Source: Clostridia bacterium (GTDB taxonomy: Bacteria > Bacillota > Clostridia > Lutisporales > Lutisporaceae). From it: a stretch of DNA of 34,074 nt. The notes beneath the pieces were generated by a model. That model made no database searches. It had not been told where the DNA came from and was given only the letters and a program-made list of their open reading frames with translations. Positions 1-34,074 of this stretch are shown one piece after another. How positions within the stretch are numbered: position 1 is the first letter of the stretch; each line of letters starts with the position of its first letter. The stretch spans positions 1 through 34,074 of the forward strand of contig JARBUB010000037.1 in NCBI GenBank assembly GCA_029239905.1, given 5' to 3'. The position numbers and the translations under genes were made by a program.

Positions 1-255
1 TGCTTACTCCGCGGCAGTCCCAGACCATTTTGCGGCAGATGAAAAACCTCAAAATCTCGACGGGATATAAGGGATGGAAGATAGCTTTCATCCCAAAATT
101 TTTTGTTTTTTTCGCCAAACAGAGTAACACTTATGTTTGATTTATCCAGCATAAAATCATAGCCGTCGTTTGGCCAAAAAAAGGTATATGAATTGCTATT
201 GTCAATTGATATAATATTTTCCATCAATCTTGCAGTGTAAGTCCCTATGCCGGTT
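1..255 (-). pseudogene. Host glycosyltransferase gene, 3' portion (runs off the left edge), split by the prophage
   Basis: Minus-strand frame from attL to the left edge is open: ...TGIGTYTARLMENIISIDNSNSYTFFWPNDGYDFMLDKSNISVTLFGEKNKKFWDESYLPSLISRRDFEVFHLPQNGLGLPRSK... The GTGIGTYT and FHLPQNGLGLP motifs are typical of family-1 type glycosyltransferases. The frame joins the right-end fragment when the prophage is removed in silico. Confidence 0.8.
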
Positions 256-6027: not shown

Positions 6028-6789
6028 CTAAGTTTTTTTTATATGAGATAGCACATCAAGATACTGTCTCAAGCTAACCGCATCAAGTCCTAATGAAATA
6101 GCCTTTTCTATGGTCTCATTCCATTCATTACTTAGACTCTCTTTATCATGTAGAAAGTCTCTATATGTAGACATAGTTGGAGCATCCTTTTGGACACTTA
6201 CCAGGGTGCCAATAATCTTATGCACACCGTTAACTTTAATATCTGGATAACTTGGATTGGCAGCTCTTAATACAGGGGTGCCGTTTTCTTGACAGAAGAA
6301 TTTAAGAGTAGCGGTCCATTCACCTTCATTGGCACCAGCAGCGACGATCTGTCCATGTTGAGCAGTGCTTGTCTGCTTCATAATAGCAATATCACCTTCA
6401 TGTATGCCTACCCAGCTCATGCTGTCTCCTACAACCCTCAATGCAAAGTCTGCCTTTAAATCCGTGGGGACTTCTATTTGCCCATCCCAATTATCTTCCG
6501 CAAGTAATGGAAGTCCGGCACGGATAGTGCCAAGTATAGGAATATTGAATCTATTTTGTGTATCTTTAAATTTCTCATCTATATAACCTGCAACTACAAG
6601 CAATTTCATATAGTCCAGATTTAAATAATCAGATATTTTTTTTAAAATCTCCGGACTAGGATTTAATCTTTCTCCGGATTCAATTTTTGATATTTCTGTG
6701 TTGCTAATTCCTGTGTAAAGAGCAAGTTGCCTTTGTGAGTAATCTTTTTTATCTCTAGCTTCTTTAATTATTTCTCCCACAGTTTTCAT
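6028..6789 (-). CDS. CI/LexA-like phage repressor (XRE HTH + S24 peptidase)
   Basis: HTH YSQRQLALYTGISNTEISKIESGER; cleavage-site-like RAGLPL; GDSMSWVGIHEGDIAIM catalytic serine region. Confidence 0.92.
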   Translation of the reverse strand: MKTVGEIIKEARDKKDYSQRQLALYTGISNTEISKIESGERLNPSPEILKKISDYLNLDYMKLLVVAGYIDEKFKDTQNRFNIPILGTIRAGLPLLAEDNWDGQIEVPTDLKADFALRVVGDSMSWVGIHEGDIAIMKQTSTAQHGQIVAAGANEGEWTATLKFFCQENGTPVLRAANPSYPDIKVNGVHKIIGTLVSVQKDAPTMSTYRDFLHDKESLSNEWNETIEKAISLGLDAVSLRQYLDVLSHIKKT

Positions 6790-7584: not shown

Positions 7585-7585
7585 T

Positions 7586-7853: not shown

Positions 7854-7917
7854 GCCTTCTTTTATAGGGAAAAAGTAGGACATGCAGCCCAATAGTAATC
7901 TTGAGAGGAGGTGTAAT

Positions 7918-17203: not shown

Positions 17204-17527
17204 ATGATGGCAAATGTTGACTTGTTAGCCGAGATTGAGAGGCTTAAAGCAGAATTTATTGGTGCAAGCGAAAATAAATTAAGAGCTTTTGCATTGATAG
17301 AGCAAGCAGCTTATGAAAGGTTATATTTACGTAGGCTGAATGAGCAGGCCTTAGCAACCGGATTGGTCAAAATACACCCTAAGAATCCTCAAATGCAAAA
17401 GGCTTTGCCTGTATCTAATGAGATTTCTAAACATTCAGCTTCACTGACAAATATAATGGATAAGCTAATAAAGCATTTATATACAGAAACGGATGATGAT
17501 GATGACGGACTTGACGAATATGCATAG
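17204..17527 (+). CDS. P27-family-like terminase small subunit
   Basis: Small helical protein immediately upstream of TerL: LLAEIERLKAEFIGASENKLRAFALIEQAAYERLYL...KIHPKNPQMQKALP. Confidence 0.65.
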   Translation: MMANVDLLAEIERLKAEFIGASENKLRAFALIEQAAYERLYLRRLNEQALATGLVKIHPKNPQMQKALPVSNEISKHSASLTNIMDKLIKHLYTETDDDDDGLDEYA

Positions 17528-19205
17528 TTACTTAATTGAGTACTATAAGAAATGTAAATCTAAAGAAATCATCATAGGCAAAGAGTTAATGGCACAACTT
17601 GAAATACTTATGAATGACATGGATAGTTCTTCATATCGTTTTGATGTAACTGAAGCTCATAAGAGGATTAAGTTTATCGAGCATGAGTGTAAACATAGCA
17701 TTTCACCTTTTGCCGGGGCTCCTTTTTTACTGGAGTTATGGCAAAAAGCATTTCTTGAAGCAAAGTACAGCTTTTATATGGAGATTGAGGGGAAGTGGCT
17801 AAGAAGATTTAACAGGACCTTATTATTAATTGGCAGAAAAAACGGAAAAACAACACTCTGCGCAGCTGACAGCTTAGCGGAGTTTTTTTGTGGGAATGTT
17901 GGTACCAATATCTTATGTGCCTCTAATGATTATGAGCAGGCAGGGCTTGTTTTTGATGAGATAAACAACATGAGGGAAGAAAGCCCAAAGCTTGAAAAGG
18001 TAAGCCGCAAAAATATTAAGGGCATATTCATGGGTAACCCTAAGCAAAAGAAGAAAAAGGGTAAGTTTAGCAAGCAAAATAAGGCTAAAATTAAAAAGCT
18101 TTCTGTTAAGACTGGTGCCAAAGAAGGCAAGAACGTAGATAAGGCGGTTATTGATGAAGTGCATGAGATGGAAGACAACAGTCTAGTAGCACCAATAGTT
18201 CAGTCCACTTCGACTAAAGATGAAGCAATGATTGATGAAATATCAACTGAGGGATTCACTCAAGATGGATATTTAGATGGGGAGCTTAAAGAAGCCAGAT
18301 TAGCGCTAAAAGGAGAGTTGCATCGGCCAAGAACACTGTATTGGCTTTACACCCAGGATAGTGAAATTGAGATATGGCAAGACCGCAGCAGTTGGCCGAA
18401 GAGCAATCCTAATCTTGGAATAGCAAAGAAATGGCATTATCTTGATGGGTTAATTGAAGAAGCTAAGACCAACAGCGCAACCAGAGCATTCATGTTAGCA
18501 AAGGATTTTAACATAAAGCAATCCAATGCCCAGGCTTGGATGCAGCAAAGTGACATACTGAATACTGAAACCTTCGACCTTAAGGATTTTGTCGGAGGTT
18601 TTTATATTTCCGGTAATGACTTTGCAGAAACTACGGATTTGTGTGCATCAAGAATACTTCTTAAGAAGCCTAATGATAAAAAGACTTATTTATATTCAAG
18701 GTATTGGATCCCAGAAAGCAAATTAGAAAACGCTCCGGATGATGTAGACTATAGAGAATGGGAGAGCATGGGATTGCTTACAATTGTGCCAGGCAATGTA
18801 GTTACAAGCTCGTTGATAGCCGATTGGCATTTTTATTTGCTTACTGAATATGATTTAAAGCCTTTTAAAAGTGGATACGATAACAGATTTGCTAAGGATT
18901 TTCAAAATAAATATATAGAGTTGTTTGGAGAAAAGGTAGCTGTCAATATACCACAGGAAGCAAAGGTTCTAAATAATCCAATGAGAACATTAGAAGCAGA
19001 TCTAAGAGATAAGACTGTAATTTATAATAATAATCCTATGGACTTCTGGTGCTTTTGCAATACAGGCATAAAACTTGATACCGTGGGCCGAATAATGCCT
19101 TGTAAAATGCATCCTAAAAAGAAGATTGACGGCACAGCTACTGCAGTTATTTGTTATGCAACTTTAGAATGGTTTAGATCAGAGTTTATGTCTCTGATTG
19201 GATAG
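17493..19205 (+). CDS. terL: Terminase large subunit
   Basis: FNRTLLLIGRKNGKTTLCAADSLAEFF (Walker A region), KAVIDEVHEM (Walker B), C-terminal nuclease region; true start may be slightly downstream (MTDLTNMHSYL). Confidence 0.92.
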   Translation: MMMMTDLTNMHSYLIEYYKKCKSKEIIIGKELMAQLEILMNDMDSSSYRFDVTEAHKRIKFIEHECKHSISPFAGAPFLLELWQKAFLEAKYSFYMEIEGKWLRRFNRTLLLIGRKNGKTTLCAADSLAEFFCGNVGTNILCASNDYEQAGLVFDEINNMREESPKLEKVSRKNIKGIFMGNPKQKKKKGKFSKQNKAKIKKLSVKTGAKEGKNVDKAVIDEVHEMEDNSLVAPIVQSTSTKDEAMIDEISTEGFTQDGYLDGELKEARLALKGELHRPRTLYWLYTQDSEIEIWQDRSSWPKSNPNLGIAKKWHYLDGLIEEAKTNSATRAFMLAKDFNIKQSNAQAWMQQSDILNTETFDLKDFVGGFYISGNDFAETTDLCASRILLKKPNDKKTYLYSRYWIPESKLENAPDDVDYREWESMGLLTIVPGNVVTSSLIADWHFYLLTEYDLKPFKSGYDNRFAKDFQNKYIELFGEKVAVNIPQEAKVLNNPMRTLEADLRDKTVIYNNNPMDFWCFCNTGIKLDTVGRIMPCKMHPKKKIDGTATAVICYATLEWFRSEFMSLIG

Positions 19206-19212
19206 GAGGTGA

Positions 19213-20463
19213 ATGATGAGAATATTAGATTATCTTAAAAATGTACTACCCCAGAGCCAAGAGCGAAAATATAGGTCTTGGCTGATTGATGGCGCACCAC
19301 TCTTTTCAAGTTTCGGAAAAGATATCTACCTTTCTGACTTCGTCAATAACGCCATCGATAGGGTAGCAAGTGAAATTAGTAAGATAGAATTAAAAAGCAT
19401 AGTTCAGAATGGTGATGTGCTGAAAGTTCAAAACGATGACATTACAAGACTATTCAGATTTAAACCTAACCCTCTGCAAACAACAAGTGATTTTTTTGCA
19501 AACGTAGAATGGTTGCGGCGCAAACACTGTAATGCATTTATTTACCCACAGTATGTGAATATTATATTACCTGATGGAAGACAATTCAAAAAATATATTG
19601 CCTTCTATCCACTGAATCCAAGTTTTGTTTATATAGGTGAAAATGATGGCAAGGTGTGGGAGATAAGATTTGATTTTGAGGATGGGAGCAGCTACACATT
19701 ACCTTACGCAGACTTGATTCATTTAAGGTGGCGCAGGGGAGCGAATACGATCATTGGCGGTGGTGATGATCGCGGTGAGGTCAATGATTACGATGTAATT
19801 CGTACCATTGATGCTTTGGACAAAACAATCCAAGGCTTACCGAAGAGTATAGAAGCATCCTTGCAAATTAAAGGAGTCTATAGCGCTAAGACACTAGCAG
19901 ATCAAGCGAAACTGGGCAAAATGAGAGATGACTTTGAAAGCCATATAACAACAAGTAAAAGTGGTATGATTGCCACAGATTTAGCGGGTGAGTTTACACC
20001 GGTTAATATTAATGCTCCGGAAATATCTGATACAGCATTAAAATTTCTTAAGTCAGTTATTCAAGAACGCTATGGAGTTTCAGCTGCAATTCTCAGTGGT
20101 GATTATACCGGCAATCAACATAGCGCATTTTATCAAACTGCAATAGAAGACTTTATAGTGCAATTTGAACAGGCATTTACAGCTTGTATATTCACTCAGA
20201 GGGAGCAGGATGTAGGCCATAGGGGCAAATGCTATTACTCTAAGGTTAATTATATGGCAACTGCTGACAAAATGAACCTAGCAGGGCTTGCAAAGGAAAC
20301 TGGAATAATGACACTTAATCAAATAAATGAAATGTTTGGCATTGAACCATTCCCAGATGGAAATAGGAGGCTGCAGAGTCTTAACTATGTGAATATCAAA
20401 GATATAGATGCTTACCAAAAGGGCAAGGCGGGAGTGAAGGAGGGAAAAGATGAGCAAGAATAA
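19213..20463 (+). CDS. HK97-family portal protein
   Basis: FVNNAIDRVASEISKIELK...RLFRFKPNPLQTTSDFFANVEWLR...LKSVIQERYGVSAAILSGDYTGNQHSAFYQTAIEDFI. Confidence 0.93.
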   Translation: MMRILDYLKNVLPQSQERKYRSWLIDGAPLFSSFGKDIYLSDFVNNAIDRVASEISKIELKSIVQNGDVLKVQNDDITRLFRFKPNPLQTTSDFFANVEWLRRKHCNAFIYPQYVNIILPDGRQFKKYIAFYPLNPSFVYIGENDGKVWEIRFDFEDGSSYTLPYADLIHLRWRRGANTIIGGGDDRGEVNDYDVIRTIDALDKTIQGLPKSIEASLQIKGVYSAKTLADQAKLGKMRDDFESHITTSKSGMIATDLAGEFTPVNINAPEISDTALKFLKSVIQERYGVSAAILSGDYTGNQHSAFYQTAIEDFIVQFEQAFTACIFTQREQDVGHRGKCYYSKVNYMATADKMNLAGLAKETGIMTLNQINEMFGIEPFPDGNRRLQSLNYVNIKDIDAYQKGKAGVKEGKDEQE

Positions 20464-21052
20464 AGAATATGAACGTCGATTGATTGAAATTAGAGCTGTT
20501 GAAAATGATGAAGATAAAATGTTAGTGGAAGGTTATGCAATTATTTATGATCAACCGGCTACTCATCAATATGGTAGCAGGAAATTTACGGAGACAATAA
20601 AAAAAGGTGCGCTAGACAACACTGACATGAAAGATGTACCTATGAGGTATAACCATAATGATAATGTAATGATTATGGCCAGAACAAGAAATAAGTCATT
20701 GCAGCTTATAAAAGATGCTAAGGGGTTAAAGATACAAGCTGATCTATTAGATACACAAAGCAATAGAGATTTATACAAAGGGATACAGGAAGGTCTGATA
20801 GACAAAATGTCCTTTGCCTTTTCCGTTGCTGATGGCGGAGATACTTGGACCTTTGGAGAGAAAGAGACTACTAGAGATGTAAACAACATTGCGAAACTGT
20901 ACGACGTATCGGTTGTGGACACGCCGTTTTACGATAGTACATCTATATATGCTCGTAGCCTTGAATTGCTGGATAGCGAAGAGAAGCGGCTGGAAAGCTT
21001 ACACGAGTTAGAATTACTAAAACTAAAAGCAAAAATTAAGGGGGAAATGTAA
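20450..21052 (+). CDS. HK97-family prohead protease
   Basis: VEGYAIIYDQPA...DVPMRYNHNDNVMIMARTRNKSLQL...MSFAFSVADGGDTW...LYDVSVVDTPFYDSTSIYARS. Confidence 0.93.
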   Translation: MSKNKEYERRLIEIRAVENDEDKMLVEGYAIIYDQPATHQYGSRKFTETIKKGALDNTDMKDVPMRYNHNDNVMIMARTRNKSLQLIKDAKGLKIQADLLDTQSNRDLYKGIQEGLIDKMSFAFSVADGGDTWTFGEKETTRDVNNIAKLYDVSVVDTPFYDSTSIYARSLELLDSEEKRLESLHELELLKLKAKIKGEM

Positions 21053-21053
21053 A

Positions 21054-22316
21054 TTGAAAAAGAAATTAATGGACCTGTTAGCAAAGAAAAATGAGAGAAA
21101 GGCAGCTATAAACACGCAAGCTCAAGCATCTAGCGATGTTGCAGAGCTAAGAAACTTGAATGCAGAACTTGATGGGCTTAATGTGGAGATTAGAAGTCTT
21201 GAAGAAATGATTGCTGCTCTTCCTGATGAGGAAGAAAAGCCAAATGAAAGAACAGCAGCAGTTAACGGACAAATCCCAGGGGTAGTAGTGGCAAGTGCCA
21301 AAGGTCAAGAGCAACGTAAAGCTGCGGATGAAATAGAAACCCGCATTGAAGCAGTTGCCACAGATTTGAGAAGCGGCAAAGAAGTAGCTATTTCAGCTGA
21401 TATTCAAGAATACCTTGAAAAGCGTGCAGTTACCACTGCCAATATTATGTTGGAAAATAAATACAAGAGAGAAGTAGCGGAAAACTTTAATGAGGTAGCA
21501 CAGACAATTGACTTAGTTGATGCTTTCCCGCTTGATGGCGGAAGTGCTTATGATGTTTCTTTCCAAATTACTGATGGCGATGCAGATTATGCTGTTGAAG
21601 GAGAAACATATACAAACGATGAGGGTACATTTGGAACTGCAAGCACTGGCAGAGCAAAGATTACCAATAGTGCAATTGTAAATGAGGAAGTTGTGGAGCT
21701 TCCGAATGCTGACTATCTTACTAGAATTGTAAACAGCGTAAGAAAGTCAATTCGTAAGAAGGCAAGCAATCAAATCATTGCTGGATTAGGAGGGACCAAT
21801 CAGCTAAAAGGTATTTACAATGCTCCAGCAATATTAATACCTGACACTTATAAGGTTGAAGTATCTGAGATTAACGGAGAGACTTTAAGAAAGATAGTGT
21901 TTGCGTATGGTGGAGATGAAGATATCGAAAGCCCTGCAACTTTGTTCTTGAGCAAGCTTGATTTAGCTGCATTTGCTGCAGTCAAAGCAACAGATGGCAG
22001 ACCTTACTACAGCATAACCTACAATGGAGCAAACGGTACTATTGAAGAAGTTGGCGGAGGATTAAGAGTTCCATACAGCATTAATAGTGCTTGTAATGCT
22101 CTATCAAATGTTGCTACAGTTGTAGGAACAAAGACTATGGTTTATGGTTCCCCAACGAACTATGAATTGCCATTATTCTCTCCTTTGACAATAAAAAGGT
22201 CAGACGAGAGATACATCGACCAAGGCAAGATTGGTTTCTTTGGCAAGACTATCGCTGGAGGAATAGTAAACAAATACAAAGGCTTCATTCCTATAGTTAA
22301 AATAGCAGCAGTATAG
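21054..22316 (+). CDS. HK97-fold major capsid protein
   Basis: N-terminal coiled-coil delta domain followed by capsid segments VEGETYTNDEGTFGTASTGRAKITNSAIVNEE...; TTG start. Confidence 0.9.
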   Translation: MKKKLMDLLAKKNERKAAINTQAQASSDVAELRNLNAELDGLNVEIRSLEEMIAALPDEEEKPNERTAAVNGQIPGVVVASAKGQEQRKAADEIETRIEAVATDLRSGKEVAISADIQEYLEKRAVTTANIMLENKYKREVAENFNEVAQTIDLVDAFPLDGGSAYDVSFQITDGDADYAVEGETYTNDEGTFGTASTGRAKITNSAIVNEEVVELPNADYLTRIVNSVRKSIRKKASNQIIAGLGGTNQLKGIYNAPAILIPDTYKVEVSEINGETLRKIVFAYGGDEDIESPATLFLSKLDLAAFAAVKATDGRPYYSITYNGANGTIEEVGGGLRVPYSINSACNALSNVATVVGTKTMVYGSPTNYELPLFSPLTIKRSDERYIDQGKIGFFGKTIAGGIVNKYKGFIPIVKIAAV

Positions 22317-22327
22317 GAGGCTGAATT

Positions 22328-22750
22328 ATGAAAGCAAAAGTAATTAAGCGGTTTGAAGATAAATACACCAAAGCCATTCATGTAGAGGGTGAGGATATAA
22401 CAATATCAAATGAGAGGTTCGAGGAAATTAACTCGACCTCTCTAGGTATTTTCCTTGAACCTATCGAAGATGAAGAAGAAAAACTTGCTAAAGAAAAGGC
22501 AGAAAAACAAAAGGAAGCTGAGGCAAAACTAAAGGCAGAACTTTATGCTAGAGTAGAAAAATTACAACTTGAACTGCCTGATGGGCTAACAATAAAGCAA
22601 GTGCAAGAAGCAGTTGAAGAGGCTGAGGCTAAGGCAAGAGTGCTTGCTGAAAAAGAAGCAGAGGAAGCGAAGGCCAAAGCTAAAGAAGAAGCGAGGGTTA
22701 AGAAGAAGAAGCGAGGGTTAAGTCCGAGGAAGATAAAAAGAAAAAGTTAG
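22328..22750 (+). CDS. Hypothetical KE-rich head-region protein, C-terminus frameshifted by a 20-bp tandem duplication
   Basis: RBS GGAGG; position after capsid gene; duplication 22683-22702/22703-22722. Confidence 0.7.
   Translation: MKAKVIKRFEDKYTKAIHVEGEDITISNERFEEINSTSLGIFLEPIEDEEEKLAKEKAEKQKEAEAKLKAELYARVEKLQLELPDGLTIKQVQEAVEEAEAKARVLAEKEAEEAKAKAKEEARVKKKKRGLSPRKIKRKS
22683..22722 (+). repeat. Perfect 2 x 20-bp tandem duplication
   Basis: AAGAAGAAGCGAGGGTTAAG-type unit; 22683-22702 identical to 22703-22722. Confidence 0.95.
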
Positions 22751-22768
22751 AAGAGTAGGTGATGGAGT

Positions 22769-23038
22769 ATGGCACTAATTGATGATGTAAAACCACGACT
22801 CGGAATATACTACTCCGATGTCAAAAAAGACAAAGAAGTCCAGGACATGATTAATGGTGCTACTCTATATTTCAAAGGTGCGGGGTGGGATATTTCCACC
22901 CCTGATGCCTTAGCTATAGAGGCAGTCACACTCTATTGCAAAATGGCTCAGTCAACAGACCCAGCACAACTAATCAATCATCCTGTGCTTTTGTCTTTCA
23001 TTGCACAAGGAAGGGTGGTGGTATCGGATGAAATTTAA
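22769..23038 (+). CDS. Head-tail connector (gp6-like)
   Basis: MALIDDVKPRLGIYYSDVKKDKEVQDMINGATLYFKGAGWD...EAVTLYCKMAQSTDP. Confidence 0.75.
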   Translation: MALIDDVKPRLGIYYSDVKKDKEVQDMINGATLYFKGAGWDISTPDALAIEAVTLYCKMAQSTDPAQLINHPVLLSFIAQGRVVVSDEI

Positions 23039-23462
23039 CCCGAATACACCTATTATGTTGTATGCCAAAGAAAGCGGCGCATATGTGCCTGGTCAAGGTC
23101 AAACAAATACATGGGCTTTGGTAGAAAGCATAACCAAACCTGAAACAGAAGAAATGCCTGCAGAAAAAGCAAGCGTTTTTTATTGTGAATGGAAAGGCAG
23201 CTTTGGAGACAGGGCAATATCTGCAGAGGCCATAGGTGTAAAAGACTCAGCGACTATAAGAACATTTTATAATCCCACAGTTTATGAAAAGCTTAAGACT
23301 GTACAAGTAGTAATTGTGAAAAATGCTGATTCTACCGCCATTGTAGATGGAGAACCAAACAAGAATAATCCCAATGTTTATGAACTCTGGGGCTGCGTGG
23401 ACAACGTGCTGGAGGAAAATCAGTTTATGGAATTTAGGGTTAGGAGGTATGAAGGACTATGA
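23028..23462 (+). CDS. Phage head closure / head-tail adaptor
   Basis: MKFNPNTPIMLYAKESGAYVPGQGQTNTWALVESI...FYCEWKGSFGDRAISAEAIGVKDSATIRTFYNP; ATG 23028 preferred over track start. Confidence 0.75.
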   Translation: MKFNPNTPIMLYAKESGAYVPGQGQTNTWALVESITKPETEEMPAEKASVFYCEWKGSFGDRAISAEAIGVKDSATIRTFYNPTVYEKLKTVQVVIVKNADSTAIVDGEPNKNNPNVYELWGCVDNVLEENQFMEFRVRRYEGL

Positions 23463-23836
23463 TAAAAGACTTATTACAGAATACCCTTGATACAGTCCTA
23501 CATCCTAAAGGAATTCACGTTCATGATCAAAGAAAATCAGGACCAGAAGCACACGAATATGTAGTATATTCATCTGCAGGGGATAGCTCACAAGAGTTTG
23601 CAGACGATATAGTACTCACTAAAAATGCCAGCTTAACCGTTAGGTATTATTACAGATCAAGTAAACTTGACAATTATACCACCAGAAAAAAGGTCAGAGA
23701 AATTGAGGATATCATTGAGAATGCTCTAATTGACGCAGGATTTGAAATACCTCCGGGAAGATTTGATGCTGGGGATGTTGATGATATTGGATATTGTGTT
23801 ACCGTGTTTGAATGTGAGTACTGGAGGGGTGTATAA
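23459..23836 (+). CDS. Tail terminator/completion-like protein
   Basis: Gene order; HDQRKSGPEAHEYVVYSSAGDSSQEFADDIVLTKNASLTVRYYYR. Confidence 0.6.
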   Translation: MIKDLLQNTLDTVLHPKGIHVHDQRKSGPEAHEYVVYSSAGDSSQEFADDIVLTKNASLTVRYYYRSSKLDNYTTRKKVREIEDIIENALIDAGFEIPPGRFDAGDVDDIGYCVTVFECEYWRGV

Positions 23837-24213
23837 TGGCAGGCATAAAAATTGATGATTTAGAGGGTGCCATTGCAGACATATTGAGAGGTTACGGCGA
23901 TGTAGTTTACCAAGCAACTGAAGAAGGGCTTGATGCAGCTCAAAAGGTTTTAATTAAGAACCTTAAAGCAGCAAGTCCTAAAGGAATAAGCAAGCAGTTT
24001 GCAAAGTCTTGGAAGAGCAAAAAGAAATATAAATTAAAGAGATATGTTGGAAATACAAAAATGGTACCAGGCAAAAAAGGTGATATACCTTTATCAAACA
24101 TATTAGAATACAGCTCAAATTCACCGCACCAAGGGCTTATAAAAAGAACTTATGAAAAAAGTATAAATGAAATGGCAGCCGCGGTGGTGGCTGAAATAAA
24201 AGGAGTGAAATAG
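23836..24213 (+). CDS. HK97 gp10-like protein
   Basis: LEGAIADILRGYGDVVYQATEEGLDAAQKVLIKNLKAASPKGISKQFAKSWK...GKKGDIPLSNILEYSSNSPHQGLI. Confidence 0.8.
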   Translation: MAGIKIDDLEGAIADILRGYGDVVYQATEEGLDAAQKVLIKNLKAASPKGISKQFAKSWKSKKKYKLKRYVGNTKMVPGKKGDIPLSNILEYSSNSPHQGLIKRTYEKSINEMAAAVVAEIKGVK

Positions 24214-25038
24214 ATGCCGAAAAATAAAGTTAAATTTGGTCTGAAAAATGCTCATTATGCTGTTATAACAGAGCTTAATGGAGTTGTAACTTATGGCACA
24301 CCTAAACCAATACCCGGTGCTGTCAATTTAGTTCAAAATCCTGTAGGAGATCCAGTATTATTCCATGCAGATGATATAGAGTATTTCAACGAGGATACAA
24401 ACAATGGATATGATGGATCCTTAGAAATGGCATTGATACCGGATGATTTCAGGGTGGATGTGTTTGGCGATGAAATAGATGCCAACGGAGCACTTATTGA
24501 AAATGCTGACGCTAAACCAAATAAAATTGCCTTAATGTATGAGTTTACAGGAGATGTAAACAAGATAAGACATGTCAACTACAATGTAAAAGTTTCTAGG
24601 CCGAATATAGATGGGTCAACCAAGACAAATACCAAAGAGCCAAAAACGGAAACAATGAATATTGCGGTAAGACCTGCAGTGGACACCAGCAATGTAAAAG
24701 CTAAATTAGAACAAGATAAAACAGGATATGATACCTTCTTTACAGCGGTATATCTGAAGAATGCAGTAAATAACTCCGTAGCCGTATCAACTGCAACATT
24801 TAGCCTAGCAGCTCCAGCAAATGTTACTATTGATGCAACAAGTACTGATGCCACTAATACAATCAAGGATGTTAAGCTTGATGGAGTATCCATTGGCGGT
24901 GCAAATATGTCATACATTGGCGTTGATGCAACAATCCTTAGCGCATATCTATCTACTCTTGATATTGGAACTTATACAATTACTGTTGAGTTTGTCAAGG
25001 GCAATGCAATAACTGTAACTCTAACTGTAACAGCTTAG
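24214..25038 (+). CDS. Major tail protein with C-terminal X2/Ig-like domain
   Basis: KVKFGLKNAHYAVITE...YGTPKPIPGAVNL...ALIPDDFRVDVFGDEIDANGALIENADAKPNKIALMYEF; C-terminal ATFSLAAPANVTIDA...LSAYLSTLDIGTYTITVEFVKGNAITVTLTV. Confidence 0.88.
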   Translation: MPKNKVKFGLKNAHYAVITELNGVVTYGTPKPIPGAVNLVQNPVGDPVLFHADDIEYFNEDTNNGYDGSLEMALIPDDFRVDVFGDEIDANGALIENADAKPNKIALMYEFTGDVNKIRHVNYNVKVSRPNIDGSTKTNTKEPKTETMNIAVRPAVDTSNVKAKLEQDKTGYDTFFTAVYLKNAVNNSVAVSTATFSLAAPANVTIDATSTDATNTIKDVKLDGVSIGGANMSYIGVDATILSAYLSTLDIGTYTITVEFVKGNAITVTLTVTA

Positions 25039-25049
25039 GAGTGAATTAG

Positions 25050-25397
25050 ATGGAAAAAGTATTAAATATTGATTGTAGAAATGTAAAATTCAAGTCTACT
25101 GGTGCTTTTTTACTAAGGTATAAAGCGCAATTTCACAGGGATGCATTGCAAGATATTTATAGGCTGCAAGGTGCAGTAGATGAGAACAATAAGATCACTA
25201 ACATCGAAGCACTTGACCTAGAAGTGTTTTATAACTTGATTTGGACACTTGCAAAGGCGGCAGACCCATTGATACCACCTCCAGTTGAATGGCTAGATAC
25301 TTTTAGCGAATTTCCGTTGATGGATATCATACCAGAATTAACAGATATGATGTTCAACTGCTTGACTTCAACGGTACAGAGTAAAAAAAAAGTATAG
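25050..25397 (+). CDS. Tail assembly chaperone, short (gpG-like) product
   Basis: Position between major tail protein and tape measure; ends at TAG just after an A9 run. Confidence 0.8.
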   Translation: MEKVLNIDCRNVKFKSTGAFLLRYKAQFHRDALQDIYRLQGAVDENNKITNIEALDLEVFYNLIWTLAKAADPLIPPPVEWLDTFSEFPLMDIIPELTDMMFNCLTSTVQSKKKV

Positions 25398-25609
25398 AGA
25401 ATAATGATGAAGAGACCTCTCTCGAGCTAACAACAGAAATATTGATGTTGAGAGCTATCGAGAGAGGTCTCTGTTTGAATGATTTTGAAAACATGACTCC
25501 TGGAATGATTATTGGGTTTATTATCACTTATAACAATGAGCATCTAGCTGATGATGAAAAAGAAGACGATGTGAGAATGGCGACTCAATCAGACTTCGAC
25601 AGATTCTGA
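25050..25609 (+). CDS. Tail assembly chaperone, predicted -1 frameshift (gpGT-like) product, 186 aa
   Basis: A9 run at 25383-25391; the -1 frame reads SIENNDEETSLELTTEILMLRAIERGLCLNDFENMTPGMIIGFIITYNNEHLADDEKEDDVRMATQSDFDRF and stops at 25607-25609. Confidence 0.8.
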
Positions 25610-25624
25610 TAGGGAGGTGAAGGC

Positions 25625-27427
25625 ATGGCAAGTATTAAAGGCATTACTATAGAAATTGGCGGCAATACGCAGCCTTTAAATAAGGCTTTAGAAGGTGTAA
25701 ATAAAAAGTCCAAGGATTTACAGTCTGAGCTTAAGCAAGTTGATAGACTATTAAAGCTAGATCCATCCAATACAACCTTAATTGAACAAAAGCAAAAACT
25801 CCTAGCTGAGGCAATTGGAAATACAAAGAGCAAATTAGACACCTTAAAGGAAACAGAGAAGCAAATATATCTGCAATTGAAGGAAGAAGGCAAAGGCAGT
25901 GAAGAACAATACAGGCTCATCCAAAGAGAAGTAATAGCTACTACGCAGAATTTAGAGAGCTTAGAGAACCAAGCAAAAAAATCGAATGCAGTTTTATCCA
26001 AGGACGAAGCTGTAGGAAATCTTAAGAATATAGCAGTAGCAGCAGGAACTGCAGCTTTAGCAGTTGGAGCGGCATTTGTTGGATTGGCAGCAGAAGCAGT
26101 CAATAGCGCTGATGAACTACAAAGACAGGCTGATGTAACAGGACTAACAGCTGAAAGATTGCAAGAACTGCAATATGCAGGTAATAATTTAGGGGTAGAG
26201 CTTGAAACGATAACAGGAGCTCAAGCAAAGCTAACAAAAGCAATGTATGAAGCTCAAGATGGTACCGGTACACAAGCTGATGCATTTAAAGCATTAGGCA
26301 TTTCTGTTGTTGATAGTAATGGTCAAATGAGAGATGCTAAAGCAGTTATGGAAGAAGCTTTTACAGCTCTCAATAACGTAGGGAATGAAACCGAACGCGA
26401 CGCTTTATCAATGCAAATATTCGGTAGATCTGCTATGGATATGAATCCTCTTATTAAAGCTGGTGGAGATGAGCTTGCGAGACTCTCTGAAGAAGCTAGA
26501 AATAACGGAGCAGTAATGTCTGATGAAGCCGTTGCAGGATTAGATGCTTTTGGAGATACAATAGATAATTTGAAATCATCCGTATTAGGTTCGTTTGGGG
26601 AAAAGTTTGCCGAGGTACTTCCTCAAATACAAGAATTTCTTGAAAAGTTAAAAGAATTACCTGAATGGATAGAAAACAATTCAACACTGCTGACAGTGCT
26701 AGGTGTAGTGATAGGAACAATTATAACCTTAATGATAGCTTTCAATATACAGCAAGCCCTTATGGCTGCTGAAATGACATTGTGGAGTGCCATAGCTGCA
26801 GGTGCAACTGCAGTAACAACGGCTTTGGGTACGGCCTTTGCATTTTTAACAAGCCCAATTGGACTTATTATTTTGGCAATTGGGGCAGTAATCGCTGCAG
26901 GAGTACTTTTATATAAAAATTGGGACACCGTTAAAGAAAAGCTTGGTGCGCTTGGATCTGCGATTAGTCAAAAGTTTAATGAAATAAAAACAGGTATTAC
27001 AGATAAAATTAATGCAGCAAAGGATGCAATACGAATTGCTATAGATAAAATAAAAGATTTCTTTAAATTCAAATGGGAGTTACCAAAGATCAAGCTGCCA
27101 CACTTCGATGTAACTGGCAAGTTTAGTTTGAATCCACCACAAATACCGAAATTCAATATTGATTGGTACGACAAAGGGGGAGTATTTAGATCACCTGGCA
27201 TTATTGGTATAGCTGAAAAAAGACCTGAATTTGTTGGTGCATTAGATGATCTAAGAAAAATTGTAAGAGAAGAGTTTAATAACAGTAATGGACAATCATC
27301 GGCGCAGGATATATATGTGACTATGCCTGTATATTTAGAAGGTAAAGAGATTGCTAGAAGCACAAGTAGAATTCAAGCTCAGAATAACAGAAGCAAATCA
27401 AGGGCGTTAGGAGTGGTGCCAGTATGA
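25625..27427 (+). CDS. Tail tape measure protein
   Basis: GNTQPLNKALEGVNKKSKDLQSELKQVDRLLKLDPSNTTLIEQKQKLL...QADVTGLTAERLQELQYAGNNLGV; hydrophobic central segments. Confidence 0.92.
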   Translation: MASIKGITIEIGGNTQPLNKALEGVNKKSKDLQSELKQVDRLLKLDPSNTTLIEQKQKLLAEAIGNTKSKLDTLKETEKQIYLQLKEEGKGSEEQYRLIQREVIATTQNLESLENQAKKSNAVLSKDEAVGNLKNIAVAAGTAALAVGAAFVGLAAEAVNSADELQRQADVTGLTAERLQELQYAGNNLGVELETITGAQAKLTKAMYEAQDGTGTQADAFKALGISVVDSNGQMRDAKAVMEEAFTALNNVGNETERDALSMQIFGRSAMDMNPLIKAGGDELARLSEEARNNGAVMSDEAVAGLDAFGDTIDNLKSSVLGSFGEKFAEVLPQIQEFLEKLKELPEWIENNSTLLTVLGVVIGTIITLMIAFNIQQALMAAEMTLWSAIAAGATAVTTALGTAFAFLTSPIGLIILAIGAVIAAGVLLYKNWDTVKEKLGALGSAISQKFNEIKTGITDKINAAKDAIRIAIDKIKDFFKFKWELPKIKLPHFDVTGKFSLNPPQIPKFNIDWYDKGGVFRSPGIIGIAEKRPEFVGALDDLRKIVREEFNNSNGQSSAQDIYVTMPVYLEGKEIARSTSRIQAQNNRSKSRALGVVPV

Positions 27428-28254
27428 TAGGTAGCTTTGAGTATAAAGGCACAGCAAGCATGATATTTAAGCTTGTCTGCATGTCCATAAAACGCCCCAT
27501 GCTCGCTGCTATACGTCCTAAATCGAAAGAAATATACGGCAAGTCAGGCATAATTGACTATGGCGAAAATGATTACTCTCCAAAGCCTATAATAATGCAT
27601 ATTGCCTATAAAGGTGAAAGCTATGCAGAATTGAGAAGGAGAGCAAGAGAAATAGCGGCATGGCTAAGCTCAGAACAGTGGGAAAAACTTATCATAAATG
27701 ATGAGCCTGATAAATACTATCTGGCTAGAGTTATTGGTGGAGTAGATTTAGACACTTTCAAAAAAACTGGTCAGGCAGATATCACCTTTGAATGCCAGCC
27801 CTTTGCATATATGGTTATAGACACTGATGCTGATCTAACTTGGGGAGAAGCCAATTTTCCTTGGGGGACGGATATACCATGGGGAATGAGTAATGCTTAC
27901 ACATTTTCAGCCACGGCAAATACATCCTTTGAATTTGAGAATCCTGGTACTAAAGAAATAGACAATAGCAGTCCACAAGGCAGCAAGTTTAATGTAGTTA
28001 TAACAGGTACATGGACAACCCTTTCAATATCGCTTAACGGTAAGACATTAGGATATGTTGGTGCAGGTACAGGAACCTTAGTGATTAATAATATCGATAT
28101 GGAAGCCACCTTGGATGGCCTTAATGATCTTGATAATATAGATGGGGACATAGATAGCTTCCTCAGTATTATACCCGGGCAGAACTCAATCAATGTAAGC
28201 GGTACCGGGCTAAATATAACAGTTCAAATAGTATTTGCTCCTATGTGGTTATAA
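27424..28254 (+). CDS. Distal tail protein (Dit-like)
   Basis: FKLVCMSIKRPMLAAIRPKSKEIYGKSGIIDYGENDYSPKPIIMHIAYKG...ADITFECQPFAY. Confidence 0.85.
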   Translation: MIGSFEYKGTASMIFKLVCMSIKRPMLAAIRPKSKEIYGKSGIIDYGENDYSPKPIIMHIAYKGESYAELRRRAREIAAWLSSEQWEKLIINDEPDKYYLARVIGGVDLDTFKKTGQADITFECQPFAYMVIDTDADLTWGEANFPWGTDIPWGMSNAYTFSATANTSFEFENPGTKEIDNSSPQGSKFNVVITGTWTTLSISLNGKTLGYVGAGTGTLVINNIDMEATLDGLNDLDNIDGDIDSFLSIIPGQNSINVSGTGLNITVQIVFAPMWL

Positions 28255-28270
28255 GGCAGGTGATAGACTT

Positions 28271-29725
28271 GTGATAAAGATATTAAATAGTGCTTTTAAA
28301 AGGCTTGTAATACTCAAGAAGGCAGAAAATCCAGTTCGCTCTGAAGAAATAAATGGAGAGAATACGCTTAATTTTAGTACTGAGTTAACTGAAAAATTAG
28401 CTCAAAATGTTGATGAAAACAGCATAATTGAGCTAGAAAATGACTATTTTGACATAGCTTATTACTTAAAAGGACAGGCAGAGAACGGTTTATTATCGAT
28501 GGATATACAAGCAGAACATGTGAGCTATAGATTGAATAATCCAGAGTATGACATGGAATACTTTACAGCTACCGGTACACCAGAAACTATATTAGCACAG
28601 ATGCTTGTTGGTACAGAATTCGCTGTAGGCACAGTAGAATTCACTAAAAATACAACATATTCAGCACAAGAAGCAAAGAGCAGACGGCAAATCCTCATGG
28701 AGTTCATTGCACAGCTGGGTGGAGAAGCTGATTTTAACAAGTTTGAAATATCCATTGTTGCACATCGAGGTAACACTACACGTAAGTTGTTGACCAAGGG
28801 TAAAAACATCAAGGTTGTCAGCAAGGTATATGACAAGAGACAAGCAGATGAGGCTGGAAATGCATTAGTGGCTTATGCCTGTGAGCCTATTCAATTAGAA
28901 AATACGAAATTTGCATTAGGTGATGAAGCACTACTCATACAAAAGGATCTAGGCATACAACAACAGTTGAGAATAGTTAAAATTAGTTACAACCCATACA
29001 ACAACCTAGAAGCAAGCATAGAGCTTGCTAATTTTATTGATACGATAGAAACCCAAATGTATCGTATGGAAACGAAAACAGTCATCAAAGACAAATTGTA
29101 TTACGGATCCAGGATAGGTCCTGAATTTGGATTTGAGTGCGTAAGGTCAGATAAACTGGCCAGAAGTATTTACAATGCAGATACTATAGCTATGCAAGCT
29201 GGAGACGGGTTAGGCAGCTATGTAGATAAGCTGTATTTTAATCCATTAGAAGGCGAGTTTGTATTTGACGGCACAATATATGCAGCCAGTGGAGTATTCT
29301 CCGGGGATGTAACAGCAGCGACTATTACCGGGGGTTCAATTATGGGTAGTACAATAGACATTGGAGAGGACGGATCTGGCGGTTACAACTTTAGTGTTGA
29401 TGTTGCAGGACATATGAATGCTAAAACTGGAACCTTTGGCGGAACAATAGAAACTGTTGAAAATGCAAGAGTAGGCAATAATCTTTACTTAGGCGATACG
29501 AATAACACTGGTAAGGCTATTGTTTTTAGTGCAAGTGCCAGTATAAGCAATCCATACGGCACAGATGCTGTATTGCTTTCAGCTCTTGGCAATATTGAAT
29601 TTGAAACTCCATATGATGTGGATTTTTCATCGGTAAATGTAGTAGGCTTAGGAAACTCAGGGTATGTAAAGCAATCCGCTATAAACGCGGCAATAGCAGA
29701 TCACATAGCTGCTTATCATGTATAA
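28271..29725 (+). CDS. Tail-associated protein (Tal / endopeptidase-tail-like baseplate)
   Basis: GTG start behind GGCAGGTGATAG; MIKILNSAFKRLVILKKAENPVRSEEINGENTLNFST...FDIAYYLKGQAENGLLSMDIQAEHVSYRLN. Confidence 0.8.
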   Translation: MIKILNSAFKRLVILKKAENPVRSEEINGENTLNFSTELTEKLAQNVDENSIIELENDYFDIAYYLKGQAENGLLSMDIQAEHVSYRLNNPEYDMEYFTATGTPETILAQMLVGTEFAVGTVEFTKNTTYSAQEAKSRRQILMEFIAQLGGEADFNKFEISIVAHRGNTTRKLLTKGKNIKVVSKVYDKRQADEAGNALVAYACEPIQLENTKFALGDEALLIQKDLGIQQQLRIVKISYNPYNNLEASIELANFIDTIETQMYRMETKTVIKDKLYYGSRIGPEFGFECVRSDKLARSIYNADTIAMQAGDGLGSYVDKLYFNPLEGEFVFDGTIYAASGVFSGDVTAATITGGSIMGSTIDIGEDGSGGYNFSVDVAGHMNAKTGTFGGTIETVENARVGNNLYLGDTNNTGKAIVFSASASISNPYGTDAVLLSALGNIEFETPYDVDFSSVNVVGLGNSGYVKQSAINAAIADHIAAYHV

Positions 29726-29743
29726 AGATAAAGGAGGATTCAC

Positions 29744-29989
29744 ATGGCAATTCAAAAGACTTTAAAGAAAAATTTCAAAACCACTGAAAATGGTGGTGTG
29801 ATAATAACAGAGACGGTGGAAAAGCAACTTTCGAAAGAAGAGCTCATGGCAGAAAAACAAAGATATTTTGCACAACAACAGCAGATCGTAAGGCAGAGCA
29901 CCCAACTAAAGGCTCAATATGATTTATTGAATGCAAACATACAAGAAATTGACGAGATGATAGCTGCAATACCCGAAACTTCATTATAG
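29744..29989 (+). CDS. Small coiled-coil hypothetical protein
   Basis: AAAGGAGG upstream; MAIQKTLKKNFKTTENGGVIITETVEKQLSKEELMAEKQRYFAQQQQIVR. Confidence 0.65.
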   Translation: MAIQKTLKKNFKTTENGGVIITETVEKQLSKEELMAEKQRYFAQQQQIVRQSTQLKAQYDLLNANIQEIDEMIAAIPETSL

Positions 29990-30108
29990 GCGTTAAGTGA
30001 TTAGTAAAGTATATATTAATTTACTTAATTATAAATATTTACAATAATTTAATAAAAGTGTTATATAATGGTATTTGTGGAATATAATTATAGGTTGGAG
30101 GTTTTGTT

Positions 30109-31830
30109 ATGTTTTATAAGTATAATAAACTTGCAGTACGAATTGCTATTTTTATATTAGCATTTTCTATTATCTCTGTAGGTGCCATTGGTAACACGGA
30201 AGAGGTGACTAGAATGAATAACAAGTATTGCAACCTTGATGTGAACAAAAACATAAGTGAAGAATACATAAAAATAAATGATGGCTTTGGTAAGGTAGAA
30301 GCTGATATAAATGCGACTAACAACAGAGTGAATGAAATTATCACCACGCCAGTAGATGGTACTATAGCAGCTCAGGAGATTATTGATGCTAGGGGTGGAG
30401 AAGCTACTCTTGGTCTTAGACTAGATGGTAATGCGCAAGATATATCGGATATTAATGCAAATTTGACTGAATATGCTAAAAAGATAAAGTACATGAATCA
30501 AGCTGATTACGTTGAACTAATAAAAAAGCATACTAATTATAATCGATTAAGATTTAGGATGATTGCAGAAAATAGTTATCAAGTATGTGTTGACAATGGT
30601 AATAATTATGTGTCTTATGGTTTTATCAAAGACGCAAACGATGACTTTATAAAATTAGGTGCTTGTGATATTGGGTTAATTGGCGGATTGGTTGATACCG
30701 GATTAGCGACAAATCTAACAGGTACATGGAATACAGCTAGTCCGCCCGATTATTATACAACAATAGCAGAATCCACATTTACAGTTAATGTAACAGGTAC
30801 AAAACTTGTATTTAGACATAGAGCAGATTCAAGAGGTGGCATATTTGAATTTGTAATAGATGGAGATACTGCCAATCCAATTACTATATCAACGTGGAAT
30901 CTAACTGATACAGGCGGTGTTAGATTAGAATCGGAAATTGTAAGAGGTTTAAATAATGTAGAGCATACTATTGTAGCAACATATAAAGGGGCTGACCCTA
31001 ACCATGCCCCAACAGGTGGAACAGCGAGGGGTTGGATAAATGGCACAGATGCACTAGTTGCAGGTACTATACAAGGATATGATGAAGATGGCATTGTAAA
31101 AACAGCAACCTTGTTAAATGAAGCATCTAATAAAGAGATAGCGGTTGATATTAGTTATAATGGAGTACATCGTTTCAATCCTGAGCATGAAATGATAGGA
31201 ACAACATTTGCCAATGATATTCCTGTATTTACGGTTGATGGAGTAAAAATAAATGAAGCAGATTTACCGTTAAATGAATGGGTTGAAGGGGCGAGTTTTC
31301 AGCTATTTCAAGATAATTATATCGAATATACTGAATTCCCTGGAGTCAAACTTGCAACATGGTTTATAACACACAGTATAGGATTAGATGGAGTTGTTGA
31401 ATATAGTGGATATTTAAGAGCTGAGGCGGATACTGTATGTAATACAATATATCCACTGATGTTACCTGTTGAATATTCCACATTAAATAGAGCGATTACT
31501 TCATTAGGAGATTCAAGAACTTCTCAAAATGATGGTACAGACTATTATTTTACAGAAAATGACAATATGAAAAGCGGTTGCTTTATTTCATCTGTAAATA
31601 ACTCCTATATTGCGGCTGGTACAATAACCGAACCACTCAGCACAATGCGAATTGGCGAAACAGTTGGAAAAGCAGAATTTCCTATTAGATTTTGGCAAAG
31701 ATTAAATTATCCAAAACTTTATTTTAGTGCAGCCGAATTATGGGATGTTAACACGTTAGATACCTATAGATGGGGTGGGAAAATTGCAGTTGCAAACATC
31801 AATAAGATAATGGCATATGTAAAAGGATAA
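30109..31830 (+). CDS. Tail fibre/receptor-binding-like protein with an N-terminal hydrophobic (signal/anchor) segment; possible internal start at 30214
   Basis: MFYKYNKLAVRIAIFILAFSIISVGAIG leader; then MNNKYCNLDVNKN... and IIDARGGEATLGLRLD typical of Firmicutes phage fibres. RBS GGAGG before 30109 and GAGGTG before 30214. Confidence 0.75.
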   Translation: MFYKYNKLAVRIAIFILAFSIISVGAIGNTEEVTRMNNKYCNLDVNKNISEEYIKINDGFGKVEADINATNNRVNEIITTPVDGTIAAQEIIDARGGEATLGLRLDGNAQDISDINANLTEYAKKIKYMNQADYVELIKKHTNYNRLRFRMIAENSYQVCVDNGNNYVSYGFIKDANDDFIKLGACDIGLIGGLVDTGLATNLTGTWNTASPPDYYTTIAESTFTVNVTGTKLVFRHRADSRGGIFEFVIDGDTANPITISTWNLTDTGGVRLESEIVRGLNNVEHTIVATYKGADPNHAPTGGTARGWINGTDALVAGTIQGYDEDGIVKTATLLNEASNKEIAVDISYNGVHRFNPEHEMIGTTFANDIPVFTVDGVKINEADLPLNEWVEGASFQLFQDNYIEYTEFPGVKLATWFITHSIGLDGVVEYSGYLRAEADTVCNTIYPLMLPVEYSTLNRAITSLGDSRTSQNDGTDYYFTENDNMKSGCFISSVNNSYIAAGTITEPLSTMRIGETVGKAEFPIRFWQRLNYPKLYFSAAELWDVNTLDTYRWGGKIAVANINKIMAYVKG

Positions 31831-31867
31831 TTCACATGAGGACAATTATGCGTAACTAAAAACAGAT

Positions 31868-31897
31868 AGGAGCTTACAAAAGTAGGCTCCTTTTTCA
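31868..31897 (+). terminator. Rho-independent terminator
   Basis: AGGAGCTTAC-AAAA-GTAGGCTCCT followed by TTTT. Confidence 0.75.
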
Positions 31898-31928
31898 TTA
31901 CAAAAACTAGACTTGATGGAGGTGCCGA

Positions 31929-32255
31929 ATGCAAGATTGGATACTCAAATACTGGATTGAGGTACTATTTGGACTTATATGTGCGGGCTTGGTTGCGTTA
32001 TATAGAAAGCTTCAAATGAAGTCAAGAGAGCAAGATGCTATTAAGCTAGGCATACAAGCGCTGCTTAGAGACCGAATAATCCAGTCGTATAATCACTATC
32101 ATGAAAAAGAGTTCTGCCCCATATATGCGCTTGATAACGTTACGGCACTATATACTCAATATCATGCGCTTGGCGGCAATGGAACTGTTACGGAGCTGGT
32201 TGAAAGACTTAAGGATCTTCCAACGGAGAAAAAAGATATCAAAAATATAATTTAG
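31929..32255 (+). CDS. Phage membrane protein, holin-like region
   Basis: Single N-terminal TM; LGIQALLRDRIIQSYNHYHEKEFCPIYALDNVTALYTQYHALGGNGTVTELVERL. Confidence 0.7.
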   Translation: MQDWILKYWIEVLFGLICAGLVALYRKLQMKSREQDAIKLGIQALLRDRIIQSYNHYHEKEFCPIYALDNVTALYTQYHALGGNGTVTELVERLKDLPTEKKDIKNII

Positions 32256-32266
32256 GAGAGATGAAA

Positions 32267-32584
32267 ATGGATATGGAAATATTACTACAATTCGTGAAAC
32301 CTGAGCTACTGATATTAGTAGCATTCTTATGGTGCTTAGGATTGTTCCTAAAAAAGGCACCTTGGTTCAAATCAGAGTGGATGATACCTTTTATTTTACT
32401 GCTTATAGGCATAATTTTTGCGGTGATATACTCAGCTATTGTTTTAGGTGAAGGCTTTACTATAGCTGGACTTATTATAGGTATCATTCAAGGGGTAATC
32501 ATAGCGGCGTTAACTGTATTTTTTAATGAGTCAGTAAAACAGGTATTAGTCAAACGCCAAGATGATAATCCTAAAAGAGAATAA
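32267..32584 (+). CDS. Phage holin
   Basis: MDMEILLQFVKPELLILVAFLWCLGLFLKK...three hydrophobic segments, upstream of amidase. Confidence 0.75.
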   Translation: MDMEILLQFVKPELLILVAFLWCLGLFLKKAPWFKSEWMIPFILLLIGIIFAVIYSAIVLGEGFTIAGLIIGIIQGVIIAALTVFFNESVKQVLVKRQDDNPKRE

Positions 32585-32636
32585 ATTTAAACTGGGGTAG
32601 GCAGCTGCCTGCTCCTTTCTTTTTGGAGGTGCAAAC

Positions 32637-33368
32637 ATGAGTAAAGTATTAATTGACATTGGTCATGGCGGCAGTGATCCGGGAGCCCAGGCAAACGGAC
32701 TTGTTGAAAAAGTTATCAACTTGAAGGTAGGCCTTCTGCTAAAGGATTATTTATTAGGCTTTGAATGTGATGTGAAGCTGACAAGAGAAACAGACATAAC
32801 CCTTACAGCAGATCAAAGGGTTGCAATCGCAAAAGCTTATAATCCTGATTTATGTATATCCGTACATCATAATGCTGCAGAAGATATAAAAGCAAGAGGC
32901 AGCGAGGTCATTCATGCGCATTATGATGATTATGATGATAAACTGGCACTTGATATAATGCAAAGGTTAGCTGTAGCAGGTATGCCAAAACGAAGGGCAT
33001 TTACAAAACTTAATAGTATCGGTTCTGATTGGTATTACATGATCCGCAGAATATGGGATAATGACACCGATGCCATTATAACAGAGGGTGGTTTTGTAAC
33101 CAATGCAGCTGATGCAGCTCTGCTTAAAACAGATGCCTTTTTAACCGTAGAAGCTCAGGCAATAGCTTATAGTATTGTTGATTACTTAAAACTGCGGCTA
33201 AAGAAGCTGACAGAGGAACAACAGCTATATATAGCAATAGCCAAGTTGAAAGATAGGGGCATAATGAATTCACCTGCTCACTGGTTAGAAAATGCAAAAG
33301 CTGGCAAGTTGATAAGAGGCGAATTTGCTTCACAATTAATTATAAAATTTGCAAAGGAATTAGAATAG
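32637..33368 (+). CDS. N-acetylmuramoyl-L-alanine amidase (Amidase_3) endolysin
   Basis: VLIDIGHGGSDPGAQANGLVEKVINLKV...LTRETDITLTADQRVAIA...CISVHHNAA...IITEGGFVTNAADAALL. Confidence 0.93.
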   Translation: MSKVLIDIGHGGSDPGAQANGLVEKVINLKVGLLLKDYLLGFECDVKLTRETDITLTADQRVAIAKAYNPDLCISVHHNAAEDIKARGSEVIHAHYDDYDDKLALDIMQRLAVAGMPKRRAFTKLNSIGSDWYYMIRRIWDNDTDAIITEGGFVTNAADAALLKTDAFLTVEAQAIAYSIVDYLKLRLKKLTEEQQLYIAIAKLKDRGIMNSPAHWLENAKAGKLIRGEFASQLIIKFAKELE

Positions 33369-33369
33369 T

Positions 33370-33402
33370 AAAAAAGCGTAGCGTTGTCTACGCTTTTTTA
33401 TT
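33370..33402 (+). terminator. Rho-independent terminator after the lysis cassette
   Basis: AAAAAGCGTAG-CGTTGT-CTACGCTTTTTTATTTTTT. Confidence 0.85.
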
Positions 33403-33507
33403 TTTTGAAAAAACAACCTCTCAAAATGCTCTACAACGAAGTAAAATCAATGGGGTAATAGGTTTATACCTCTGGGTTTTACGCGTTATTAGATTTATGT
33501 TCCAAAG

Positions 33508-33528
33508 CAAACATATGTTTGGTATAAT
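33508..33528 (+). promoter_or_regulatory. Palindrome CAAACATATGTTTG (33508-33521) abutting extended -10 TGGTATAAT (TATAAT 33523-33528)
   Basis: Perfect 14-bp palindrome, similar to the GAAC-N4-GTTC/T LexA class, next to the -10 of the terminal gene. Confidence 0.55.
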
Positions 33529-33555
33529 ATACTAAAAAATATGCGGAGGGATACT

Positions 33556-33816
33556 ATGAGACCTGTGGAATGTATAGTTGATTGTGATGGCAAAGGCGGG
33601 CTAAAGCCAATGCGAATAAGATTCGAGGATAAAGAAGGAAAACACGTTATAAACGTGGATAAGATTGTTGAGCAAGAGGTTAAAAAGGTCTTTGCATCAA
33701 TGAACAATCCTGCTGGAAGAGCATTCCATTATAAATGTGAGAGCACTATTGATGGTTTACGAGTACCCTTTAAGTTGATGTTCGATAATAATAATTGCAA
33801 ATGGTATTTAATGTAG
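33556..33816 (+). CDS. Small hypothetical protein (last phage gene)
   Basis: RBS GGAGGG; MRPVECIVDCDGKGGLKPMRIRFEDKEGKHVINVDKIVEQEVKKVF...FHYKCESTIDGLRVPFKLMFDNNNCKWYLM. Confidence 0.75.
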   Translation: MRPVECIVDCDGKGGLKPMRIRFEDKEGKHVINVDKIVEQEVKKVFASMNNPAGRAFHYKCESTIDGLRVPFKLMFDNNNCKWYLM

Positions 33817-33848
33817 AAGGGTTGGACAAGTATTGTTATTGTAGATTA

Positions 33849-33890
33849 AGACCATTCGGAAAGCTGCAAGAGCTGCTGAGAGAATGGTCT
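33849..33890 (-). terminator. Hairpin immediately after the predicted phage-form integrase stop codon
   Basis: AGACCATTC (33849-33857) / GAATGGTCT (33882-33890). On the minus strand it begins at the TAG at 33889-33891 that ends the attP-form integrase frame. Confidence 0.45.
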
Positions 33891-33923
33891 ATTCCCGCGA
33901 AAATTTTGTTTCATAAGAAAAAC

Positions 33924-34007
33924 TCAATATACTATTTGTTGTACTTTTGTACCTATTGGAGTTCCGGCATAGAGCTTTGCTCCTCTGGTATCAACGCATA
34001 TTTGCAT
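33924..34007 (-). pseudogene. Host glycosyltransferase gene, 5' portion fused to phage DNA (27-aa truncated ORF)
   Basis: RBS GGGAGTGA, ATG at 34007: MQICVDTRGAKLYAGT then phage-derived PIGTKVQQIVY*. Host part ends at the attR core. Confidence 0.8.
33938..33972. other. attR: attR (phage arm GTTGTACTTTTGTACC 33938-33953, core GTT 33961-33963, host half-site CCGGCATAG 33964-33972)
   Basis: See attL; reconstruction gives a palindromic attB and an inverted-repeat attP. Confidence 0.85.
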
Positions 34008-34074
34008 AAGCTCACTCCCAAGGTTTGATTCAGTATACACTTTTCATTATATGATAAGAGGCTGTAAAGGTTGC

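Follow-up and report, generated by a model that had tools for sequence, protein, structure and literature searches.

A temperate siphophage has very probably inserted itself, through a serine integrase, into a probable spore-coat gene for a GT4 glycosyltransferase in a way that leaves the gene exactly restorable. The window (the whole stretch of DNA analyzed, 34,074 nt) is one entire contig of a metagenome bin (G000:C224; bin completeness, 76.9%) and holds a ~33.7-kb siphophage prophage between the separated parts of the gene. The phage's own serine integrase would have used a palindromic attB, formed by conserved codons of the GTGIGTYT loop, and the insertion would leave a mother-cell-type promoter and the first 16 codons on one side and the remaining ~355 codons on the other. 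With promoter and start separated from the rest, the gene would be inactivated in the lysogen, and integrase-driven excision, which would require a directionality factor, would rebuild it exactly.

Insertion site and prophage

Since the window is the entire contig, only the initial part of the 3′ gene fragment lies inside it. A second assembly, IMGVR_UViG_3300042923_001353 (locus L042), carries the same prophage at 100% identity wherever the two were compared (window 1-7881 and 27541-34074); there, all of the remaining gene is complete and open. A single lysogen is known, from these two assemblies, which are possibly non-independent. The features of the window are as follows.

3..255, minus strand, 3′ part of the glycosyltransferase gene, which runs off the contig and is completed in L042 (5992-7074)
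202..1881, minus strand, large serine integrase, 559 aa (Pfam Resolvase, Recombinase, and Zn_ribbon_recom; PHROG 95 integrase)
253..255, minus strand, attL core AAC, with int-side arm GTTGTACTTTAGTGCCGATAGC and host arm CGGCATAGG
6028..6789, minus strand, HTH and S24 peptidase repressor of the LexA/CI type (Pfam)
17493..33368, plus strand, late module (Pfam and PHROG matches)
33541..33816, plus strand, 91-aa ORF beside attR (position)
33961..33963, minus strand, attR core AAC, with host arm CTATGCCGG and phage arm TCCAATAGGTACAAAAGTACAAC
33961..34007, minus strand, 5′ part of the GT4 glycosyltransferase gene, the opening 16 codons from the ATG at 34007 (sequence and translation)
34045..34072, minus strand, putative sigma-K-like promoter driving the glycosyltransferase gene, AACC-N15-CATATAATG (AAC-N16-CATATAATG; consensus match)

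Both junctions can be read directly. The minus strand from 34007 to 33961 encodes MQICVDTRGAKLYAGT and ends at the AAC core (33961-33963), and on the same strand, reading onward from the other AAC core (253-255) gives GIGTYTARLMENIIS...; these 3 bp are the only identity common to both ends of the element. Joining the flanks gives a single open frame, MQICVDTRGAKLYAGTGIGTYTARLMENIISIDNSNSYTFFWPNDGYDF...FHLPQNGLGLPRSK, that equals the intact orthologs across the junction. The rebuilt attB, CTATGCCGG-AA-CCGGCATAG, is a perfect 9-bp palindrome around AA and falls on the invariant GTGIGTYT codons, while the rejoined attP is an imperfect palindrome (17/22) with arms GTTGTACTTT.../...AAAGTACAAC. Palindromic attB and attP sites of such form are the expected anatomy for serine integrases. 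The crossover dinucleotide would be AA or AC, because the best symmetry centers of attB and attP lie one base apart. Together, attL and attR, the palindromic attB, and the serine integrase beside attL identify a site-specific insertion inside a coding region, as the sequence-only reading had proposed when it placed a prophage at the GTGIGTYT motif of a glycosyltransferase; its further claim, that excision would restore the frame, is borne out by the joined flanks.

The integrase has the three domains and the length (~450 to 600 aa) of large serine integrases, and its identity to GenBank phage integrases is about 25 to 32% for the best among the matches listed. Because its frame crosses attL (window 202-255), the last 16 integrase residues are host-encoded in the lysogen; in the circular form, the computed protein has a different, phage-encoded tail and a total of 566 aa. 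The exchange of C-terminal tails could in principle report or tune the integration state. The late module encodes a terminase, portal, prohead protease, major head protein, tape measure, tail proteins, tail fiber, holin, and amidase, and on this gene content the prophage is apparently a complete temperate siphophage. Its S24/HTH repressor is expected to place lysogeny under SOS-inducible control.

Pfam and PHROG searches with the 91-aa ORF beside attR gave no match, and relatives with 85 to 89% identity occur in three other viral contigs (L053, L054, and L055). The ORF and its upstream DNA (81 to 87% at the DNA level) are kept in otherwise different viral contigs. One relative adjoins a different serine recombinase, while a 40.7-kb contig with a relative has none, so that position makes the ORF at most a weak candidate excision factor. 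Several other genes of the phage were noted. Besides the serine integrase, the phage encodes a second recombinase, of the tyrosine type (14821-15429, plus strand). Near the integrase, a gene for a SIR2-domain protein overlaps one for a 471-aa protein that belongs to no known family (3147-5884, minus strand); the two are a candidate prophage-borne defense pair, with weak SIR2 matches in PADLOC, and a SocA/Panacea-like protein (under the Pfam cut-off) followed by a 147-aa protein without a known family (2102-3134, plus strand) may be a toxin-antitoxin or defense pair.

The interrupted gene and its neighborhood

The sequence-only reading had asked for phage-free relatives with an intact gene, and these are common: a close ortholog was found in 18 of the 22 family genomes searched (the bin itself, on contig C174; all four congeners; and 13 of the 17 other family genomes), and every one reads through the insertion site. 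One of them, in G002, is ended by a contig end at residue 211, well beyond the site; the remaining four family genomes have no close ortholog in their assemblies. The intact copy on C174 reads MQICVDTRGAKLYAGTGIGTYTARLMENIMSIDDTNSYTFFWPN..., and the start of the 5′ fragment is identical or nearly so in orthologs. Motif residues G17 to T22 are invariant in 16/16 aligned proteins. Apart from the same phage, no recurrent insertion at this site was found in the 22 family genomes, 391 class genomes, or IMG/VR.

Assignment to GT4 (GT-B) follows from a Glycos_transf_1 domain (PF00534) and an AlphaFold model (mean pLDDT, 91) with a GT-B fold, for which PDB matches include MshA, BshA, and PimA; a plain phmmer search of the PDB returned nothing at 1e-20, while profile and fold searches did match. 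In the model, residues 2 to 5 form the first strand and residues 17 to 32 the first long helix, and the insertion is accordingly predicted to remove strand 1 and to split the glycine-rich loop. In GT4 enzymes, this loop is located at the donor phosphate. The split gene should therefore be inactive, and we infer loss of function in the lysogen. The L042 gene has 97% amino acid identity to that of the sister species G004 (locus L005) over 355 codons, with a dN/dS of about 0.02; the 3′ part thus appears free of decay, though most of the difference could have arisen before the insertion.

In relatives, the gene and that for a CotS-family spore-coat kinase (TIGR02906, well above cut-off) are divergently oriented; more CotS genes, YabG, and a SpoIID/CwlD-like gene are found close by, and manC flanks the other side. 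SpoIVA is present in four of the five genomes of the genus (the bin and three of its four congeners). In 12 of 13 relatives, the ortholog is preceded by a sigma-K-like box, whereas about 0.04 would be expected per 160 bp, a comparison in which the pattern had been loosened at two positions after inspection of the alignment and the relatives are not independent. The box appears clearly conserved amid diverged intergenic DNA. Given this box and the spore neighborhood, expression of the glycosyltransferase gene in the mother cell is likely. An earlier suggestion of a surface or spore polysaccharide can thus be narrowed: the CotS kinases, yabG, the sigma-K-like box, and SpoIVA all point to the spore coat, and a vegetative surface polysaccharide is the less likely product.

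Beside the interrupted glycosyltransferase gene is a second split gene, manC, which is unusual. In G004, a second serine-recombinase element splits manC: contig C22 encodes residues 1 to 88, C43 carries the remainder next to a serine recombinase, and joining the halves at a common ACTGC restores a 358-aa ManC. The split loci are as follows.

L042 8010-9191; L005 4917-7225; L067 1459-1776 (G004), split manC

The IMG/VR contig of the prophage lysogen has this 3′ half-site and recombinase end as well, and with manC also split there, the local sugar pathway may be impaired anyway. Between the two split-carrying lineages, the manC fragment has a dN of 0.012 and a dS of 0.28 (dN/dS about 0.04); if the insertion is common by descent, the fragment would have been under selection while split. 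The Pfam match of the G004 recombinase spans only profile positions 52 to 143, so part of the catalytic domain seems to be missing, whether through a genuine loss or an error of assembly. In L042, a GNAT acetyltransferase gene (7148-7957) separates the glycosyltransferase gene from manC, whereas C174 and L005 have none at that place.

Lysogeny, excision, and the origin of the contig

With use of the gene probably confined to the mother cell at sporulation, the insertion would cost the lysogen little during growth. Ordinary lysogeny, in which the gene is knocked out and comes back only on induction or loss of the phage, with no role in sporulation, has a slightly better than even chance of being the full account. 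The phage looks complete and carries an SOS-type repressor, and one lysogen among 22 family genomes is what a recent insertion would give. Nor was a sporulation signal found in the phage: no sigma-E/K-like box was detected upstream of int, the 91-aa ORF on the attR side, or the repressor, and sigma-K-like consensus matches within the phage numbered 8 versus a shuffled expectation of 15.5, with none before a likely control gene. However, the mother-cell-type target and the split manC nearby hint that the locus tolerates or reverses insertions.

The sequence-only reading had gone further and envisaged a phase-type or developmental switch, a reading that the data do not support. In a switch like that of SPbeta in spsM, mother-cell excision during sporulation would restore the glycosyltransferase for the coat of that spore while the forespore kept the prophage. 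The mother-cell-type promoter and spore-coat context fit such a scheme, as do a reading frame intact on both sides and the match to the SPbeta architecture (serine integrase, exact gene restoration); moreover, the known intervening elements in sporulation genes are almost all in mother-cell genes (PMC6957869). Against it, no directionality factor was found, and neither the integrase nor the attR-side ORF was seen to have a mother-cell promoter in front of it. SOS induction is what the S24 repressor would suggest, and the low dN/dS may merely predate a recent insertion. The excised attP junction was not found in IMG/VR, which is weak evidence either way. Developmental excision is plausible, with the balance leaning against it. 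That both the glycosyltransferase gene and manC are rejoined in the mother cell, so that a spore glycan coat would need two independent excisions, is improbable.

A truncated glycosyltransferase might also be made in the lysogen from the integrase transcript, starting at an in-frame GTG at 266 (minus strand; MPIATGIGTYT...). The open frame from this GTG runs the same way as int and overlaps the stop codon of int; in L042, it would give 360 aa. However, such a product would be without the first GT-B strand, including the nearly invariant D6, R8, G9, and A10, and no clear ribosome site was seen, which makes this reading very unlikely.

The host flanks of C224 have 92% and 96.5% DNA identity to G004 (locus L005), with alignments that meet at the core, versus 82 to 89% identity to the bin's own C174 copy, while other DNA of the bin (SpoIVA region) has about 81 to 87% identity to G004. 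Because its flanks are so much nearer to G004 than to C174, C224 was probably mis-binned, and the prophage-bearing contig most likely comes from another, unbinned relative of G004. As the simple reading, two gene copies within one genome were rejected, since the divergence between C174 and G004 is typical of the bin and the C224 flanks are far nearer to G004. Probable mis-binning is also what could suggest a false joining of phage and host sequence, but such an assembly artifact is exceedingly improbable, as a 3-bp core is common to both junctions, rejoining yields a perfect attB palindrome, and the junctions recur in the IMG/VR contig with 3 kb of extra host DNA on one side.

Known intervening elements and implications

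The prophage would be a new member of an established class: elements that enter sporulation genes by way of a serine integrase and interrupt them. The closest parallel is SPbeta in spsM of Bacillus subtilis, likewise a serine-recombinase prophage in a spore polysaccharide gene from which exact excision restores the frame, and for which excision during sporulation has been demonstrated (PMC4191935). The two differ in target (spsM versus a GT4 gene next to cotS), in bacterial class, and in size, the phage here being smaller. SPbeta also has sprB and sporulation-timed excision, both of which are hypothetical for the present element; in an SPbeta-like unit (SprA/SprB), the factor has its own mother-cell promoter, and here no such promoter was found at the candidate factor. 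The yin element of Clostridium botulinum is also a prophage-like serine-recombinase element inside a clostridial sporulation coat gene, and it has been demonstrated to excise and circularize (PMC10747680), which for the present prophage can so far be predicted only from the DNA. The target of yin is yabG, here a gene in the same neighborhood as the target rather than the target itself. Similarly, skin in sigK, the spoVFB and spoVR elements, and gin in gerE excise precisely through serine recombinases (PMC6957869, PMC5595907) and split mother-cell genes, as is putatively the case here. Several of these elements are defective prophages or are not phages, in contrast to the complete-looking phage described here. 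In the open-access literature searched, we found no report of this glycosyltransferase gene as the interrupted target.

Prophage interruption of spore-envelope sugar genes would thereby extend from Bacillus to an uncultured family of Clostridia and to a new target gene, with an interrupting phage that is apparently complete. As the codons of the site are fixed by protein function, this would explain how the phage could find its target across species. The integrase and the attB/attP pair, which are short and well delimited, could be tested in a laboratory host, and the doubly split locus offers a direct way to tell whether insertions of this kind are passive hitchhikers or controlled switches.
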